From Lentzea tibetensis (lineage in GTDB: Bacteria > Actinomycetota > Actinomycetes > Mycobacteriales > Pseudonocardiaceae): a stretch of DNA of 64,000 bases. The DNA is taken from contig NZ_VOBR01000003.1 of the NCBI RefSeq assembly GCF_007845675.1, positions 393,862 to 457,861 on the forward strand, in the 5' to 3' direction. Both the position numbers and the translations under genes were made by a program. The notes beneath the pieces were generated by a model, which was given only the letters and a program-made list of their open reading frames with translations, was not told the origin of the DNA and searched no databases. Shown here piece by piece: positions 3,528 to 23,660 of this stretch (positions within the stretch are counted from its first letter, which is position 1; every line of letters starts with the position of its first letter).

Positions 3528-4964
3528 ATGGGGAAGGCACGGGTCGTCGCGGCTGTGGCCGCGCTGGCGTTGCTCAGCGGGTGCACCTCGGTCGTCGAGG
3601 GCACCGCGAGAGGCGAGCGCCCGGACCCGACGAAGGTCGCCGGCCTGGAGATCACCAACGGCGCGTCCGGCCCCCGCGAGGGCGTGCCGGACGCGGACCT
3701 GCGCGTGGAGAACGCCGACGGCGGCGACATGGACCGCCTGGCGATCAACACGCTGGCCGACGTCCAGGAGTACTGGACCGCTGAGCTGCCCGCCCAGTTC
3801 GACGGCAAGACGTTCGAGCCGGTGAAGCGCCTGGTGTCGTACGACTCGACGGGCAAGGGCGTCGAGGTCTGCAAGACCGACACGACCGGCGTCGCCAACG
3901 CCTTCTACTGCTCGCTGGACGACAGCATCACGTGGGACCGCGGCGACCTGCTCCCGATGCTGAACGACTCGTTCGGCCCGCTCGCCGTGGTCACCGTGCT
4001 GGCCCACGAGATGGGCCACGCCGTGCAGTACAAACTCGGCCCGGCGTCCGGCATCACCCAGGCGACCCCGTCGATCGTGAAGGAACAGCAGGCCGACTGC
4101 TACGCGGGCACGTTCTTCCGCTGGATGGCTGAGGGCAAGGCGAAGCACTTCGAGATCTCCACCGGCCCAGGCCTGAACAAGGTCCTGACCACGATGTTCT
4201 TCATCCGCGACCAGGCGGGCACGTCGTTCGAGAAGCAGGGCGCCCACGGCAGCGCCTTCGACCGCGTCTCGGCATTCCAGTTCGGCTTCGCCCGCGGCGC
4301 CCGCCGCTGCGCCGACATCGACGAGGCCGAGATCGAAGCCCGGATCACCGAGCGCAAGTTCGAGCCCGCGGACACCGACAAGGGCCAGGGCCGAGGCAAC
4401 GCGAAGGTCGACGACGACAAGTTCCTGCGCGCACTGGAGAACAGCCTGCGCAACGCCTACAAGACCTCCGGCGCCACGTTCCCCGCGATCAACCGGGATG
4501 GCGCGGGCTCGTGCTCCGACGCGGAGCCGACCACTCCCGCCACCTACTGCCCCGCCACCAACCAGGTCGGACTAGACCTGCCCGGACTCGTGCGGATCGG
4601 CACGCCCCCGAAGAAGGGCCAGAAGGGCGGCATCGGCGACTTCGCCGCGTTCGCGGTGATCGCGTCGCGGTTCTCGCTGTCGATCCAGAAGGCCACCGGG
4701 TTCAAACTCGACGACGAGGCCGCCGGGCAACGCACCGCCTGCCTCACCGGCGCCTGGGCGGGCGAGGCCAACAAGCCGACCGCCGAGCTGCGCCTCTCGC
4801 CCGGCGACCTGGACGAGGCCGTGTCCGAACTGCTGGCCGACGACAGCCTGATCGCCGCCGACGTCAACGGCGCCACCGTGCCTTCCGGGTTCGCACGGGT
4901 GGAGGCGTTCGGTGACGGCTTCTTCGGCGGCTCCTCAACCTGCGTGCGCAAGTACAACCGCTAA
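3528..4964 (+). CDS. Lipoprotein with neutral zinc metallopeptidase domain
   Basis: 478 residues starting at ATG 3528. The N-terminus (MGKARVVAAVAALALLSGC) is a lipoprotein signal with the lipobox LLSGC, so export and membrane anchoring are expected. The HEMGH zinc motif is at residues 160-164, followed by the acidic EQQADCYAG segment that supplies further active-site residues in the neutral zinc metallopeptidase family. A GAHGSAFDR motif follows. The C-terminal third contains paired cysteines, probably disulfides. It is a clear paralogue of the convergent gene at 5840-7210. Substrate is unknown. Identification as a zinc-peptidase-family lipoprotein is firm; activity is inferred from the intact motif. 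Confidence 0.88.
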   Translation: MGKARVVAAVAALALLSGCTSVVEGTARGERPDPTKVAGLEITNGASGPREGVPDADLRVENADGGDMDRLAINTLADVQEYWTAELPAQFDGKTFEPVKRLVSYDSTGKGVEVCKTDTTGVANAFYCSLDDSITWDRGDLLPMLNDSFGPLAVVTVLAHEMGHAVQYKLGPASGITQATPSIVKEQQADCYAGTFFRWMAEGKAKHFEISTGPGLNKVLTTMFFIRDQAGTSFEKQGAHGSAFDRVSAFQFGFARGARRCADIDEAEIEARITERKFEPADTDKGQGRGNAKVDDDKFLRALENSLRNAYKTSGATFPAINRDGAGSCSDAEPTTPATYCPATNQVGLDLPGLVRIGTPPKKGQKGGIGDFAAFAVIASRFSLSIQKATGFKLDDEAAGQRTACLTGAWAGEANKPTAELRLSPGDLDEAVSELLADDSLIAADVNGATVPSGFARVEAFGDGFFGGSSTCVRKYNR

Positions 4965-5003
4965 CGCGCGCTAGTGCTTGACGTGCGGTGCGGGCGTGCT
5001 TTC

Positions 5004-5081
5004 GCAGGCGTCCTCGCACGCGAGAAACCCCCGAATCGATGCTCTCAGCCGGCACTGACAACTCCGGGCCCCGCAGCCACG
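5004..5081 (+). repeat. Dispersed repeat module A, copy 1 (78 bp)
   Basis: A 78-bp segment that recurs at 5163-5240 and, inverted, at 23701-23778. Shared stretches include GCAGGCGTCC, GAGAA(A)CCCCCGA, a TCTC-GCC core and an ending like CCGGGCC-GCAG-CACG. Each copy has the same length, with scattered substitutions. No gene is evident here. Confidence 0.75.
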
Positions 5082-5162
5082 CCGACCGTGAATTCACCGA
5101 GAAAGCAGGGCTCGCTGCGCACGGCTGGGAGCGAGGCGGGCGCGGGTCGCGGCCATGCTCAC

Positions 5163-5240
5163 GCAGGCGTCCCCCGCGTGTGAGAACCCCCCGATTCCAT
5201 GGTCTCTGCCAGCACCGACAATCCCCGGCCCGCAGGCACG
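5163..5240 (+). repeat. Dispersed repeat module A, copy 2 (78 bp)
   Basis: Second 78-bp copy of module A, directly upstream of the 30-bp tandem repeats. It is closer to the inverted copy at 23701-23778 (both share CAGCACCGACAATCCCCGGCC) than to copy 1. Copies 1 and 2 are direct repeats 159 bp apart, which suggests local duplication. Confidence 0.78.
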
Positions 5241-5249
5241 CAAACCACT

Positions 5250-5606
5250 GAATCCGGCAGGTACCGAGGGAGCGCAGCCCAAACCGGCGGGTACTAAAGG
5301 AGCACCGCTCAAACCGGCGGGCACCAAGGGGGCGCGAGCCCAACTGGCGGGCACCAAGGGAGTATCGCCGAAACCGGCAGGTACCGAGGGGGCGCGGCCC
5401 GAACCAGCGGGTACTAAGGGAGCACCGCTCAAACCGGCGGGCACCAAGGGAGCGCGAGCCCAACCGGTGGACACCAAGAGTGCACGGCGAAACCGGCGCG
5501 AACCAAGCGAGCACCCCCTCAACCGGCAGATACCAAGAGCCGAGCGAAACCGGCAGATACCAAGGGAGCACCGCCAAAACCGGCAGATACCAAAAGAAAA
5601 GAGCGC
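5250..5606 (+). repeat. 30-bp degenerate tandem repeat, about 12 units
   Basis: About 12 head-to-tail units with consensus AAACCGGCGGGTACCAAGGG followed by AGCACCGCTC. Ten-base phasing is exact for most units (5281-5310, 5311-5340, 5341-5370, 5371-5400, 5401-5430, 5431-5460), then units of 29 (5461-5489), 30, 27, 30 and 30 bp. The last units carry AGATACC in place of GGTACC. The 29-bp unit shifts the reading frame inside the repeat, which argues against a coding function. About five diverged units of the same repeat occur inverted at 23511-23660. Confidence 0.85.
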
Positions 5607-5677
5607 CCGCCGCACTAGCAACCCCCGCACTGCCAACCGGGCGCGGCCCCCGAACACAAACCGGCAGCCAAATGATC
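5592..5677 (+). repeat. Dispersed repeat module C, copy 1 (86 bp)
   Basis: An 86-bp block from AAAAGAAAAGAGCGCCC to CCAAATGATC. The reverse complement of 23429-23514 matches it with only a handful of differences (for example GCAACC/GCGACC and CCCCCGAACAC/CCTCCGAGCAC). It is the best conserved part of the mosaic repeat and follows the tandem array in both places. Confidence 0.85.
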
Positions 5678-5700
5678 AGAACAAACTTTCCCGGAGGGCG

Positions 5701-5830
5701 GGGTGGGGAGAGGTTCGCGGATCAGGCGAAGCCTTGCCATATTTTCAGGTCGGGGTCAAGACGTCTTTTTGTCTTGACCCCGCCCTGAAAATATGGCCAC
5801 CTCTGGTGATCCGCGAACCTCTCCCCACCC
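5701..5830. repeat. 130-bp long palindrome between convergent genes
   Basis: The outer arms are a perfect 24-bp inverted repeat: GGGTGGGGAGAGGTTCGCGG plus ATCA at 5701-5724, with its complement at 5807-5830. An inner pair (CCATATTTTCAG near 5738 and CTGAAAATATGG near 5784) and GGGGTCAAGAC/GTCTTGACCCC extend the stem to a short T-rich centre around 5765-5771. It ends 10 bp from the stop of the 5840-7210 gene. It could form a very long hairpin and act as a bidirectional terminator, or be a MITE-like element; the sequence does not decide. Confidence 0.8.
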
Positions 5831-5839
5831 AGAGGAATC

Positions 5840-7210
5840 TCAGCCCACCCCACACTTCTTGGGCCCCTCGAACACACCTTCACGAAACACAGCAACCCGC
5901 TTGAACCCAGGCTCAAGCGCAGACCCACCTTTACTGTCCCGAGCCGCGTAGTCGTACTCGAGCAACACGTTGACGGCCTCGTCCATATCGCCGGGCGAAA
6001 GCCCGAACCCCTTCTCACGAGCAAGCACAGACCCGGTGTAAGCGCCGGCCAAGCACAACGCACTGCGGCTAGCGTCCTCACCCTCCAAGGGCTTCCCGAG
6101 AACAGCCAACTCAGCCATCCCGTACCGCGAGGCGAGCAACACGCCAGTCGCGTAGTCACCCAGCTCAGCGTGCAAAGCGGGCAACTCCTCCTTGACGTCA
6201 ACGGCGATCGACTTGGCAGAAGGGCAGTACGCAACCGGCCCTTGGTTACCGGAGCAGTCGGGCTCGGTCTGGCTGGCCTCGGCCTTGGGCGGAGTCCACG
6301 TCTTGCCGAGCTGCTGGGCGATGGACGCGTAGTACCCGTCCAGGTCGGGCGTGATCGACTCGAGCATCTTCGCGAACGGCAGGTTGCCGCCGGTGGCGCG
6401 GTCGTCGGCGTTGGTGAACGCCCGCTGCGTGAAGACGCGGTTCTGCACGGTCATCGCGGCGCAGAACTTGGTGCCCTGCTCGTACCCGTCCTGGAACGCC
6501 GCGACGCGGTCGAACGCGCTGCCGTGCGCCTGCTCGTCAGTGGGCGACGTGCCCACCGGGTCGCGGAACGTGATCAACGCGCCCAGCGCTGAGTCGAGCG
6601 TGTTGGAGCCGATGTCGAGGTGGTCGGACTTGCCGTCGTTGACCCACCGGATGAACGAGCCGGCGAAGCAGTCGGCCATGGCCTCGGTGAGGATCGTGGG
6701 GAACCGTTCCGGCTCGCGGCGTTCGGCCTCCGGGGTGATGCCCATGCGGCGCTGCACGGCGTGGCCCATCTCGTGCGCCAGCACGATGACCACGGCGGCC
6801 TGCCCGAACTTGTCCTCCAGCACGGGCAGCAACGCGGTCCGGTCCCAGGCGATCGCGTCGGCGGCGGGGCAGTAGAAGGCGTTGCCTTCGACGTCCGAGG
6901 CCTTCTGGGTGCACGGCGGCGGCTTGGCGGTGTTGTCGGAGGTGTCGACGGAGTAGTAGCCGCCGGTGAGCTTCTGCCACGGCTTGTTGAACGTCGGCTG
7001 GGACGCGTCGGTCCAGAACTGCTCGATGTCCGTCAGCGCGGTCGCGGCCAGCTGGTCGATGCGGCCGCCGTCCGTGCCGCGGACCACGGCCGTGTCGATG
7101 CCCTCGTTGTTCACCACCTTCGCGGCGACCGGACGGCCTGGGATTGCGTTGGAGCACCCGGTGACCACGAGTGCCAAGACGACCAGGAACGCGATCCGAG
7201 AGTGCCGCAT
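5840..7210 (-). CDS. Lipoprotein with neutral zinc metallopeptidase domain, paralogue of 3528-4964
   Basis: 456 residues from ATG 7210 (MRHSRIAFLVVLALVVTGCS), a lipoprotein signal with lipobox VVTGC. The longer open frame upstream has no signal-like N-terminus, so this start is preferred. HEMGH is at residues 146-150, then a TEAMADCFAGSF segment, the AHGSAFDR motif and a cysteine-containing C-terminal region, in the same order as in the 3528-4964 product. The two genes converge on the repeat/palindrome region. The pair is probably an old inverted duplication. Substrate is unknown. Confidence 0.88.
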   Translation of the reverse strand: MRHSRIAFLVVLALVVTGCSNAIPGRPVAAKVVNNEGIDTAVVRGTDGGRIDQLAATALTDIEQFWTDASQPTFNKPWQKLTGGYYSVDTSDNTAKPPPCTQKASDVEGNAFYCPAADAIAWDRTALLPVLEDKFGQAAVVIVLAHEMGHAVQRRMGITPEAERREPERFPTILTEAMADCFAGSFIRWVNDGKSDHLDIGSNTLDSALGALITFRDPVGTSPTDEQAHGSAFDRVAAFQDGYEQGTKFCAAMTVQNRVFTQRAFTNADDRATGGNLPFAKMLESITPDLDGYYASIAQQLGKTWTPPKAEASQTEPDCSGNQGPVAYCPSAKSIAVDVKEELPALHAELGDYATGVLLASRYGMAELAVLGKPLEGEDASRSALCLAGAYTGSVLAREKGFGLSPGDMDEAVNVLLEYDYAARDSKGGSALEPGFKRVAVFREGVFEGPKKCGVG

Positions 7211-7281
7211 CACCCCATTGTGCCGGGTGCGCGGTGTGGTGGGGGGCATGTCAAGGCCAACGTGCCTCACCCCGCACCGGT

Positions 7282-8433
7282 TCAGGTGCGTTGGGCTGAT
7301 AGTGGGACGTTCGGACTGCTCGCACCGATGCAGTCGTGCACGCCGACCCCGTCAGCGACATAGGACTCGTCGCTCTCGACCTGCAGGTTGTAGACCCAGC
7401 CGTCGAATTTCGGCGAGGTGACGCCCTGCACCCGCCGCCACACAGCGGTGTCGTCGACCTTGGGCAGGTTGGTCCCGTTGCCGTAGGGAAACGACAGGTC
7501 GTACCGGGTCTGTCGGGTCGCGGCGTGTCGGTTGAGGCTGGGCTCGGACTGACGCAGACCGACTGGCCGTCCGAGCGTGGTGGCGATGGCGAGCATGTCC
7601 AACGCGAGCTGGCGGCACACCGTTACGCCGACCACCAGCTGCCGGTCCTGCCGGTCAGAGCCGTCGCCAGCCAGCCAGCCGTCCAGCAACGCCTCGAGAT
7701 ACGGGGCCGGGCCGTACGTCACGTGCGCGGACAGCCTCTTGTCGCCGTGCTTGGCAGTACCGGGCACCAGGATTTCGAACAACCGCTTCCACGTCTTGCC
7801 GTACAGCACGACGATCATGGCCCCGTTCGGGCGCTGCTGAATCCGCGAAGTCGCTCCGAACGCGTCCTTGATCAGGGCACATGTTTCCGGGACCAGGGTG
7901 TCGCGTTCGTGGCTGCCGTAGGTCCAGGTGACCTTGTTGGGAGTGACGTTCCCTTCGGCCGCGTACAGGCCGAGCAAGCGACCGAGCGACGGAGTGCGGG
8001 CCAACAGCGTCGGCAGTGGCGCGATCTCGCTGATCACGCCGCCGACGTTGATCGTGCCGTCGATGGTCCCTCGCAGGTCCTTGACGTTGACCAAGCGCTC
8101 CACGTGGATCAGATCGTCTCCGGCGGCGTGGTAGCGGGTGATCGACACGTGGTCGCCGTTGCGGAGATCCTTCGCGGCGACGTAGCCGCGAGTCGTGCGC
8201 ACCGGGTGGTTCGGAGTGCAGTGCAGTGGCATGTGCCCGCGAAAGGTCACCTCCACCAGACCGTCGTCCGCGCGCCGCACCATCGTGTGCAGTACCCGCC
8301 CGGTACGCCCTTCGGCGGTGACCACCTCGTCGAGCAGCCGGATCTGCTCGATGGGGCGCTGGCTGCCGTCGGCCAGGCGCACGTACGTCCCGGCCGGGAC
8401 GCACACGCTCAACGGTTGGAAAGCCCTCTTCAT
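7282..8433 (-). CDS. Free-standing intein-like protein (Hint splicing domain with LAGLIDADG homing endonuclease)
   Basis: 383 residues from ATG 8433, seven bases after the glgB stop. After ten residues (MKRAFQPLSV) an intein begins at Cys11: block A CVPAGTYVRLADGSQ, block B LHCTPNHPV with the TxxH motif, a two-motif homing endonuclease core (LLGLYAAEG and LLDGWLAGDG), and block F VYNLQVESDESYVADG ending VGVHD before Cys368. Only 16 residues follow. The intein would be about 357 residues, normal for a LAGLIDADG intein. Its last residue is Asp, not the usual Asn, which may slow C-terminal cleavage. Splicing would join a 10- and a 16-residue flank into a 26-residue peptide. No recognisable host protein surrounds it, which is unusual. 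It may be co-transcribed with the glgE-glgB operon. Domain identity is firm; splicing and host function are inferred. Confidence 0.85.
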   Translation of the reverse strand: MKRAFQPLSVCVPAGTYVRLADGSQRPIEQIRLLDEVVTAEGRTGRVLHTMVRRADDGLVEVTFRGHMPLHCTPNHPVRTTRGYVAAKDLRNGDHVSITRYHAAGDDLIHVERLVNVKDLRGTIDGTINVGGVISEIAPLPTLLARTPSLGRLLGLYAAEGNVTPNKVTWTYGSHERDTLVPETCALIKDAFGATSRIQQRPNGAMIVVLYGKTWKRLFEILVPGTAKHGDKRLSAHVTYGPAPYLEALLDGWLAGDGSDRQDRQLVVGVTVCRQLALDMLAIATTLGRPVGLRQSEPSLNRHAATRQTRYDLSFPYGNGTNLPKVDDTAVWRRVQGVTSPKFDGWVYNLQVESDESYVADGVGVHDCIGASSPNVPLSAQRT

Positions 8434-8440
8434 GGCAACG

Positions 8441-10588
<2,148 letters not shown>

Positions 10589-10591
10589 GAC

Positions 10592-11904
10592 TCACTCTCC
10601 TCCGCTGGTGATCCGGGCGATCGACGACAGGGGGATCGTCAACCACTCCGGCCGGTTCGCGTGCTCGTAAGCGACCTCGTAGACCGCCTTGTCCAACTCG
10701 AACGCCTGCAACAGGAAGGCGTGCTCGCGCGGGTCCGACAAGACCTCCGCGTACCCGTCGCAGAACGCCGCGCGGTTGCGCCGCGCCCACTCCAGCGCTC
10801 GGTAGGCGAGCTGGTCGTCGTCCTGACCGACCAGCAGCTGGTGCGCCGCGTAGTCGAAGGATCGCAGCATTCCGGCCACGTCGCGCAGTGGCGAGCGCAT
10901 CGCCGTCCGCTCCGCGATCGGTGCGGCGGGCTCACCTTCGAAGTCGATCAGCAGCCAGCCCTGCACGGTCCGCAGCACCTGACCGAGGTGCAGGTCGCCG
11001 TGGATGTGCTGGATCGCGATGTCGCCGAGGTGCTCGCGCGCCTGCTCGAACACCTCCCGCAGCGCCGCCGAGTGCTCGCCCAGCTCCGGGACGTCGTGCA
11101 GCACGGCGTCCAAACGGGACTGCATCGACGCGATCGCCGACGCGATCTCGGTGGCGCCCGCGGTCTGCGTGCCGAGCGCCCGCGCCAGGTCCGCGTGCAC
11201 GGACGCCACCGCGTGGCCCAGCCGGTGCGCCTCGGCCGCGAAGTCGCCGCCGACCTCGTCCGCGTGCAGGTCCGCCTCGGCCATCAGGTCGCGCACGCTG
11301 GTCGTCGCCATCGCCCAGCCGTCGACCGCGTCGGGCAGGAACTCCTGCAGCATGCCGAGCGTCACCGGCGTGCCGTCGAGGTCCGTCGTGATCGACCCGA
11401 GCGGCTGCGCGATGTGCTGGCAGCCGACGCCGCGCAGCGCCCGGTGCAGCACCAGGTCCGGGTTCTCGCCGAGCGTCAGCTTGCGGAACAGCTTCAGGAT
11501 GTACTGCTGTCCGTAGATCAGCGACGTGTTGGACTGCTCGACCCCGACCGGCCGTCCGCGCAGCCCGGTGCGCAGCTCGGTGTCCGGCTCGTGCGCGAAC
11601 ACCAGGCCGTCCACCCGCTCGCCGCGGGCGATCAGGTCGAGGAGCACGCCGTTCAGCTCGGGGTCGGCCGTCGACTCGTAGGAGTCGGCCAGTTCGGAGA
11701 TCAGCAGCTGGTACGGGCTCGACCGGCCGTCCTGGTCGACCGCGACGATCACGTGCACCAGGTCGTCGTCCAGCAGTGTCGTCCGAAGTGGACGGACGCC
11801 GCTGACGGGCCGGTCCTTGCCGCCGAACCAGCGCAGGTTCGGCAGCATGTCCGGCAGCGCGGACACCAGCTTGTCGACGAGTTCGTGCGGGTCGATCACG
11901 CGGT

Positions 11905-11908
<4 letters not shown>
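10592..11908 (-). CDS. mak: Maltokinase (Pep2)
   Basis: 438 residues. It phosphorylates maltose with ATP to maltose-1-phosphate, the donor used by GlgE. Kinase-like features are [14 protein letters not shown] (catalytic HGDLH loop) and [10 protein letters not shown] (metal-binding Asp), typical of aminoglycoside-phosphotransferase-fold maltokinases. The length fits the family. The start is GTG 11908, whose last two bases lie in the TreS stop (GTGA); GTG 11899 three codons later is the alternative. The adjacent treS agrees with the TreS-Mak complex or fusion known in actinobacteria. It lies three bases before glgB. Confidence 0.95.
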
Positions 11909-13725
<1,817 letters not shown>

Positions 13726-23428: not shown

Positions 23429-23514
23429 GATCATTCGGCTGCCGGTTTGTGCTCGGAGGCCGCGCCCGGTTGGCAGTGCGGGGGTCGCTAGTGCGGCGGG
23501 CGCTCTTTTCTTTT
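23429..23514 (-). repeat. Dispersed repeat module C, copy 2 (86 bp)
   Basis: The reverse complement matches 5592-5677 nearly base for base. It abuts tandem-repeat units at 23511, in the same internal order as at the first locus, so the whole mosaic is present inverted. Confidence 0.85.
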
Positions 23515-23660
23515 GGTACCTGCCGGTTTCGCTGGGGCTCTCTTGGTATCTGCCGGTTTCGCCGGGCTCTTTTGGCGCCTGCCGGTTGGGCCGGTGCGCC
23601 TCTGGTATCTGCCGGTTTGGTCGGTGCTCTCTTGGTTCTGCCGGATCGTGGTGGGTCGCC
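23511..23660 (-). repeat. 30-bp tandem repeat, about 5 diverged units
   Basis: Units such as TTTTGGTACCTGCCGGTTTC plus GCTGGGGCTC (23511-23540) and TCTTGGTATCTGCCGGTTTC (23541-23560) are complements of the 5250-5606 repeat. There are fewer units here and more divergence toward 23660. Confidence 0.75.

Follow-up and report, generated by a model that had tools for sequence, protein, structure and literature searches.

In Lentzea tibetensis, a complete phage-type intein carrying a LAGLIDADG homing endonuclease appears, on balance, to be an orphan intein, set outside any protein gene in the spacer that separates glgB from a Zn-peptidase gene. The element lies in a stretch of 64,000 nucleotides (hereafter the window), and no host gene is seen at its locus. 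It is best read as a dead end or as a solo homing endonuclease. The usual view is that inteins persist because their host genes are indispensable. A complete intein with no protein gene around it would mean that inteins can land elsewhere, and would provide a case of the fate of the splicing part once nothing depends on splicing.

The open reading frame (ORF) starts with an ATG at 8433 and ends with a stop at 7284–7282, in a frame that differs from that of glgB; the plus-strand reading of the same positions contains stops, and the intein frame is that of the minus strand. All intein blocks and both endonuclease motifs had been predicted to lie in one open frame, and this is borne out on the minus strand by an alignment and by Pfam and NCBIfam, while the reading of the ORF confirms flanks of only 10 and 16 residues (Table 1). 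The Pfam model Intein_splicing (PF14890) matches with 36.0 bits, barely above its cut-off of 35.8 (E 7.6e-9), and the NCBIfam model of the intein C-terminus (TIGR01443) with 17.4 bits (cut-off 15.6); TIGR01445, which models the N-terminus, reaches 18.6 bits, under its cut-off of 24.5. LAGLIDADG_3 (just under), Hint_2, Vint and Hom_end_hint also match under their own cut-offs, and PADLOC reports 'HEase' (E 4e-4). When the window intein is aligned with nine others, of phage, plasmid and genomic origin, Cys1, Thr63, His66, Asp247, Gly248, His356 and Cys358 (intein numbering) are among the invariant columns, T63 and H66 being identical in 10/10 rows. As in class 1 inteins, blocks A, B, F and G are present with Cys1, TxxH, the penultimate His and the +1 Cys, and both LAGLIDADG motifs carry acidic residues (Glu160 and Asp257), with the conserved Lys232 standing ahead of the second; residues 348–362 of the ORF read YNLQVESDESYVADG. 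The C-terminal Asn of class 1 is replaced by Asp, which makes this an atypical variant, and in-frame insertion in a host protein is lacking. Since the exteins comprise 10 and 16 residues with no homologues found, the element is filed as an intein by sequence that is not in the usual intein setting. The open frame alone is little evidence, because the GC content is 67% and the opposite (plus) strand also carries a 475-amino-acid ORF in the same region. At the level of sequence, what is beyond chance is the frame-true identity of 41% along the intein to a viral intein. A scan for promoters and terminators found nothing.

Table 1. Features of the intein ORF and its neighbours (positions in the window; residues numbered from the start of the ORF unless stated otherwise)
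Feature	Positions	Strand	Remarks
Stand-alone intein ORF, whole	7282..8433	minus	383 aa, ATG to TGA
N flank, 10 residues (MKRAFQPLSV)	8404..8433	minus	extein homology: none found
Intein proper, residues 11–367 (Cys11 to Asp367)	7333..8403	minus	
Splicing block B, TPNH, residues 73–76 (Thr73, His76)	8206..8217	minus	alignment columns T63/H66 of the intein
LAGLIDADG motif 1, GRLLGLYAAEG, residues 151–161, acidic Glu160	7951..7983	minus	
LAGLIDADG motif 2, LLDGWLAGDG, residues 249–258, acidic Asp257	7660..7689	minus	
Splicing blocks F and G, ending His366-Asp367-Cys368	7330..7395	minus	C-terminal Asp instead of Asn, then +1 Cys
C flank, 16 residues including the +1 Cys (CIGASSPNVPLSAQRT)	7285..7332	minus	
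glgB (1,4-alpha-glucan branching enzyme), upstream neighbour, co-directional	8441..10588	minus	
Zn_peptidase (PF04228) gene, downstream	5840..7210	minus	Pfam
Conserved box TGAACC-N14-CACGTTG, upstream of the metallopeptidase gene	7258..7284	minus	intein TGA is its first three bases

The original prediction had placed the element directly after glgB, and its ATG does follow the glgB stop (8443–8441) by 7 nt. The name glgB for the upstream gene follows that prediction and background knowledge. Both glgB and the Zn-peptidase gene are present in 25/25 genomes of the genus, and the box lies downstream of glgB in 24 of them; in the remaining genome (G020) it is not within 1302 nt of the glgB stop and stands upstream of the peptidase gene, some 12–13 kb away. 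Measured from the glgB stop, the box is 17–62 nt away in 11 of the 25 genomes and 213–665 nt away in 12, whereas the window has 1156 nt; subtraction of the 357 intein codons leaves 85 nt in the window, near the range of 17–62 nt but outside it. The box stands 47 nt ahead of the peptidase ATG in the window, against 68 nt in each of the 23 further genomes that have it near glgB, which indicates that the spacer has been altered on the peptidase side too. In the 24 of 25 genomes with the box near glgB, the interval that follows glgB showed no extein gene ahead of its next neighbour, setting aside the contents of the longer spacers. As the box is kept and the flank and spacer have no matches, the foreign DNA apparently reaches no further than the native box, with no host gene visible at the site.

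Other features of these spacers and their surroundings were recorded in passing. The 12 spacers of 213–665 nt (L020, L021, L024, L027–L029, L031, L033, L034, L039, L040 and L042; ten of them of 634–665 nt) perhaps hold another insert. The TGAACC-N14-CACGTTG box is kept upstream of the Zn-peptidase gene throughout the genus (7258–7284 in the window; loci L058–L082) and is possibly a regulator site. Nested inverted repeats (24 nt with 100% and 27 nt with 96% complementarity) lie at 5701–5830 between two convergent Zn_peptidase paralogues, and tandem arrays at 5250–5593 and 23509–23644, in opposite orientation and 18 kb apart, have a unit of ~30 bp (about GCACCGGCGAAACCGGCAGATACCAAGAG) that is the same in both by eye.

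The flanks gave no sign of a host protein. Compared with the exteins of 56 related viral inteins, their best score was 9, against a mean of 8.9 for the shuffle maxima, and was reached by 48% of shuffles. The joined 26-residue peptide matched 50,697 phage records only at an E of about 10, the joined 85-nt spacer was not found in the 24 other genomes of the genus, and the core of the C flank, sought as a dispersed repeat with up to three mismatches, has one copy in the window genome and none in those 24. A relative whose flanks belong to a longer protein, the finding that the original prediction had named as speaking against it, was thus looked for among the 56 exteins, the phage records and the 24 genomes and was not found. 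The prediction of a free-standing element without a host protein is supported by flanks that score no better than shuffles and by the lack of an extein gene at the locus in 24/25 genomes.

The closest relative found is the intein of locus L116, on the virus contig IMGVR_UViG_3300037882_000695, in a protein of 642 amino acids. Direct alignment gives the identity of 41% quoted above; the best tblastn segment is 39% identical with an E of 1e-68, a value that is relative to the candidate stretches only. The next two viral matches have E values of 6e-27 and 5e-26 at 26–27% identity. In a FastTree phylogeny of 62 inteins the window intein and that of L116 are grouped with a support of 0.999, on long branches. 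The L116 intein breaks its host between ENQGSHGS and CNGYALANAAW, leaving exteins of 76 and 195 residues, neither of which has a match in Pfam. By its residue pattern, the host looks like a papain-type cysteine peptidase with the intein ahead of the catalytic Cys. Viral inteins ahead of a Cys and papain-like residues were also seen by eye at L133, L138, L172 and L191, as at L116, a hint that inteins may repeatedly settle at the catalytic Cys in cysteine peptidases of viruses. The hosts of far relatives, according to record names or by eye, are DNA methyltransferases, DnaE-like proteins, an amidase-like protein and a phage protein near a portal gene. A profile scan of viral contigs gave 268 relatives, of which the best 80 were kept. 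Pattern scans, which detect only loci that hold the chosen short patterns, found no close relative in genome and viral contigs when built on a single sequence; with a two-row alignment (A2) they gave 27 loci in genome contigs, all Hint-domain stretches within residues 1–133, and two in viral contigs, L116 and L224.

Host frames of related inteins are considerably larger than the window ORF, which has 26 extein residues in 383. In 81/81 viral loci, which represent 64 distinct intein segments and comprise the top 80 among the 268 relatives plus one, at least 143 residues lie outside the intein match. Residues were counted from the first possible start, and the N-extein count is somewhat too high at seven loci where the match starts after Cys1. 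The smallest extein total among them is that of L176 (89 + 54 residues) and the shortest frame has 544 amino acids; in a second, largely overlapping set of 80 loci, the C-terminal block was readable in 78 and no frame was shorter than 576. A search of the genus at E ≤ 0.001 found a match in 12 of 25 genomes: the window genome, one genome (G008) with an intein in a methyltransferase-like frame of 1091 amino acids, and ten whose matches are short Hint segments within frames of at least 563. Protein and A2 searches matched 7/391 genomes of the family (1e-8), 5/396 of the phylum (1e-9) and 9/394 of the class (1e-10); the four sets overlap and each includes the window genome, and in the three larger ones scoring was confined to the top 4 or 5 first-look candidates of each genome. 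Among the matches listed in the genus-to-class searches there was no second short frame with both intein ends and an endonuclease. The two short frames listed are Hint-only (G201, 274 amino acids; G859, 181 amino acids), the latter being part of an RHS-like gene by eye. A PF14890 search of the 391 family genomes found 89 with a match at E ≤ 1e-5, and by eye two of the listed matches lie in frames of less than 450 amino acids. One of these (G034, 345 amino acids) is an RHS-type Hint domain by eye. The other (G088, locus L113) has a listed frame of 421 amino acids, in which an intein lies in a 411-amino-acid ORF that ends ~34 residues past the intein; in other genomes, matches of this kind lie in frames of 645–726 amino acids, presumably of Rv2578c-like radical SAM proteins. 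By this comparison of frame lengths, G088 likely holds an intein-bearing pseudogene, the intein being left in a truncated host gene. The PF14890 search did not list the window ORF itself and can therefore miss others like it. A literature search over titles and the openings of abstracts returned no description of a bacterial stand-alone intein, a result that is not a claim of absence from print.

The splicing part is well preserved except at its C-terminus. Asp occupies the last position in one of 62 aligned inteins, that of the window, and Asn in the other 61 (near-duplicate viral loci and matches not beginning and ending with Cys were left out of this comparison). The original prediction was right that the Asp is unusual, at least in this group. 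According to a review, Asp and Gln can cyclise in place of the C-terminal Asn in other inteins, which can cleave or splice (PMC4031507), so the Asp need not uncouple cleavage from splicing, as that prediction had suggested it could. Of the conserved splicing columns, 4/25 are altered in the window intein at the 80% level (rank 58 of 62), 5/31 at 70% (rank 43) and 9/40 at 60% (rank 52); for the endonuclease the figures are 1/10 (rank 52), 2/15 (rank 29) and 4/21 (rank 26). Decay of the splicing part was considered from these ranks and is a weak reading. Two of the four splicing changes at the 80% level (G24L and H30A) are common to the window intein and L116, and only E341Q and N357D (intein numbering) are absent from L116. 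Every nucleophile but the C-terminal Asn is kept, unlike in a long-abandoned gene, so the orphan is either young or its processing is selected. Set against the intact nucleophiles, the two changes not found in L116 weakly suggest a young orphan.

Under the orphan reading, the intein would have inserted alone into the noncoding spacer between glgB and the Zn-peptidase gene, and its 10- and 16-residue 'exteins' would most likely be spacer DNA in frame by chance, from a chance ATG to the native TGA of the box. If made, the protein would probably be the last cistron after glgB. It should fold as an intein and cleave at either end or at both, a reaction that the Asp may make slow or incomplete; the products would be a free endonuclease and a short peptide without function. 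The old recognition sequence, when met in the DNA of a passing phage or of the host, may remain a target of the endonuclease, and the solo gene should be a recent arrival on its way to decay. The anatomy, the tie to a viral intein and the lack of a visible host gene at the locus are observed; the ectopic insertion, expression, processing, cutting and age of the orphan, as well as an intein-less site at this locus, are inferred. The codon adaptation of the ORF is low (0.56, against 0.80 for glgB, 0.80 for treS and 0.64 for the peptidase gene, these three forming the reference set, which favours them) and fits a foreign origin or import. Several points count against ectopic insertion. Inteins home by recombination that depends on homologous flanks, and insertion into a spacer would thus take an unusual event; no clear trace of a target site was found, the repeat scan of 7000–8800 giving only short, weak repeats; and the range of 17–62 nt excludes 85 nt, while the peptidase side of the spacer is changed.

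A possible but doubtful alternative is that a fragment of a larger gene with an intein, perhaps a phage gene, inserted here and had its exteins deleted back to 10 + 16 residues, which left an intein pseudogene. L116, the closest relative, sits on a virus contig, and G088 is a likely case of such decay within the family, as judged by the ORF end ~34 residues past the intein and by frame lengths. Nevertheless, the flanks resemble neither the exteins of L116 and 55 others beyond shuffles nor phage records, no phage genes were recognised by eye among the ORFs of 4000–13000, and the stop of the intein ORF falls in conserved native DNA, right where the foreign DNA ends.

Rather improbable is a bacterial free-standing element like yeast WHO or HO, which would cut the 3' end of an intein-less glgB and copy itself in together with a resistant 3' end, splicing being unneeded. 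The layout is alike, since yeast WHO genes stand alone, resemble inteins and come immediately after the metabolic gene FBA1 (PMC7282813), and the C-terminus of glgB in the window (VLYFVLDE) is unlike those of its relatives. Compared with glgB of G020, the two final blocks at the 3' end have some of the lowest identities in the gene (0.80 and 0.81), but values of 0.800 and 0.808 also occur at codons 201–240 and 561–600. Over the last 70 codons the window gene is no further from 23 others than that of G020 (differences of -0.008 and +0.001), larger identity deficits (up to -0.054) fall elsewhere in the gene, and the relatives also diverge most at the 3' end; the glgB of the window lineage is diverged overall and 3' identity falls in every comparison. 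No second glgB 3' fragment appeared in the repeat scan of 7000–8800, which gave at best repeats such as 23 nt at 74%, and the element is present in 1/25 genomes of the genus only. A WHO-like replacement of the glgB 3' end is not supported.

Selection for peptide release, in which splicing or one-sided cleavage would yield a functional peptide of 26 residues or fewer, is very improbable: the retained nucleophiles and the presence of only E341Q and N357D as splicing changes unshared with L116 at the 80% level would suit it, but neither the peptide nor its DNA was found in the phage records or the 24 other genomes of the genus, and the peptide-releasing system put forward in the original prediction is thus unsupported. 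An assembly artefact, in which an intein from elsewhere was wrongly joined to the glgB locus, is just as improbable; the draft genome has 105 contigs and the codon usage of the ORF is unlike that of its neighbours, but the ORF lies inside a contig of 457,861 bases, is single in the genome and runs on one side into the conserved box.

Of the known systems closest to the window intein, its viral relative L116 shares with it a DGSQ(R/K)PIE..RLLD..TAEGRT start; L116 differs in its 76- and 195-residue exteins and in ending HN before C, where the window intein has 10 and 16 residues and HD before C. Inteins with a C-terminal Asp or Gln are alike in having Asp for Asn, with cleavage or splicing possible; the cases described in PMC4031507 sit in host proteins. 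Bacterial intein-like (BIL) domains, also named in the original prediction, are not known to carry an endonuclease or to need a +1 nucleophile. They share a Hint-type domain with the window ORF (PMC7765530). Since this ORF combines a LAGLIDADG endonuclease with a +1 Cys and has an ordinary intein as its sister in the tree, that reading is not supported either. Yeast HO and WHO are stand-alone intein-derived LAGLIDADG genes without a host protein, as here, and most WHO genes directly follow a metabolic gene; however, they lack block G and carry zinc fingers (PMC7282813), whereas the window ORF keeps block G, ends 16 residues later and has no Pfam zinc-finger match, and the replaced gene 3' ends of WHO are absent. 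The window element may work like HO or WHO. It is improbable, yet conceivable, that it represents a bacterial counterpart of HO and WHO at the first step, a freed intein with a near-intact splicing apparatus that would act as an independent homing gene and use self-cleavage only to trim itself. Yeast HO may once have arisen from a natural starting point similar to an orphan intein such as this.
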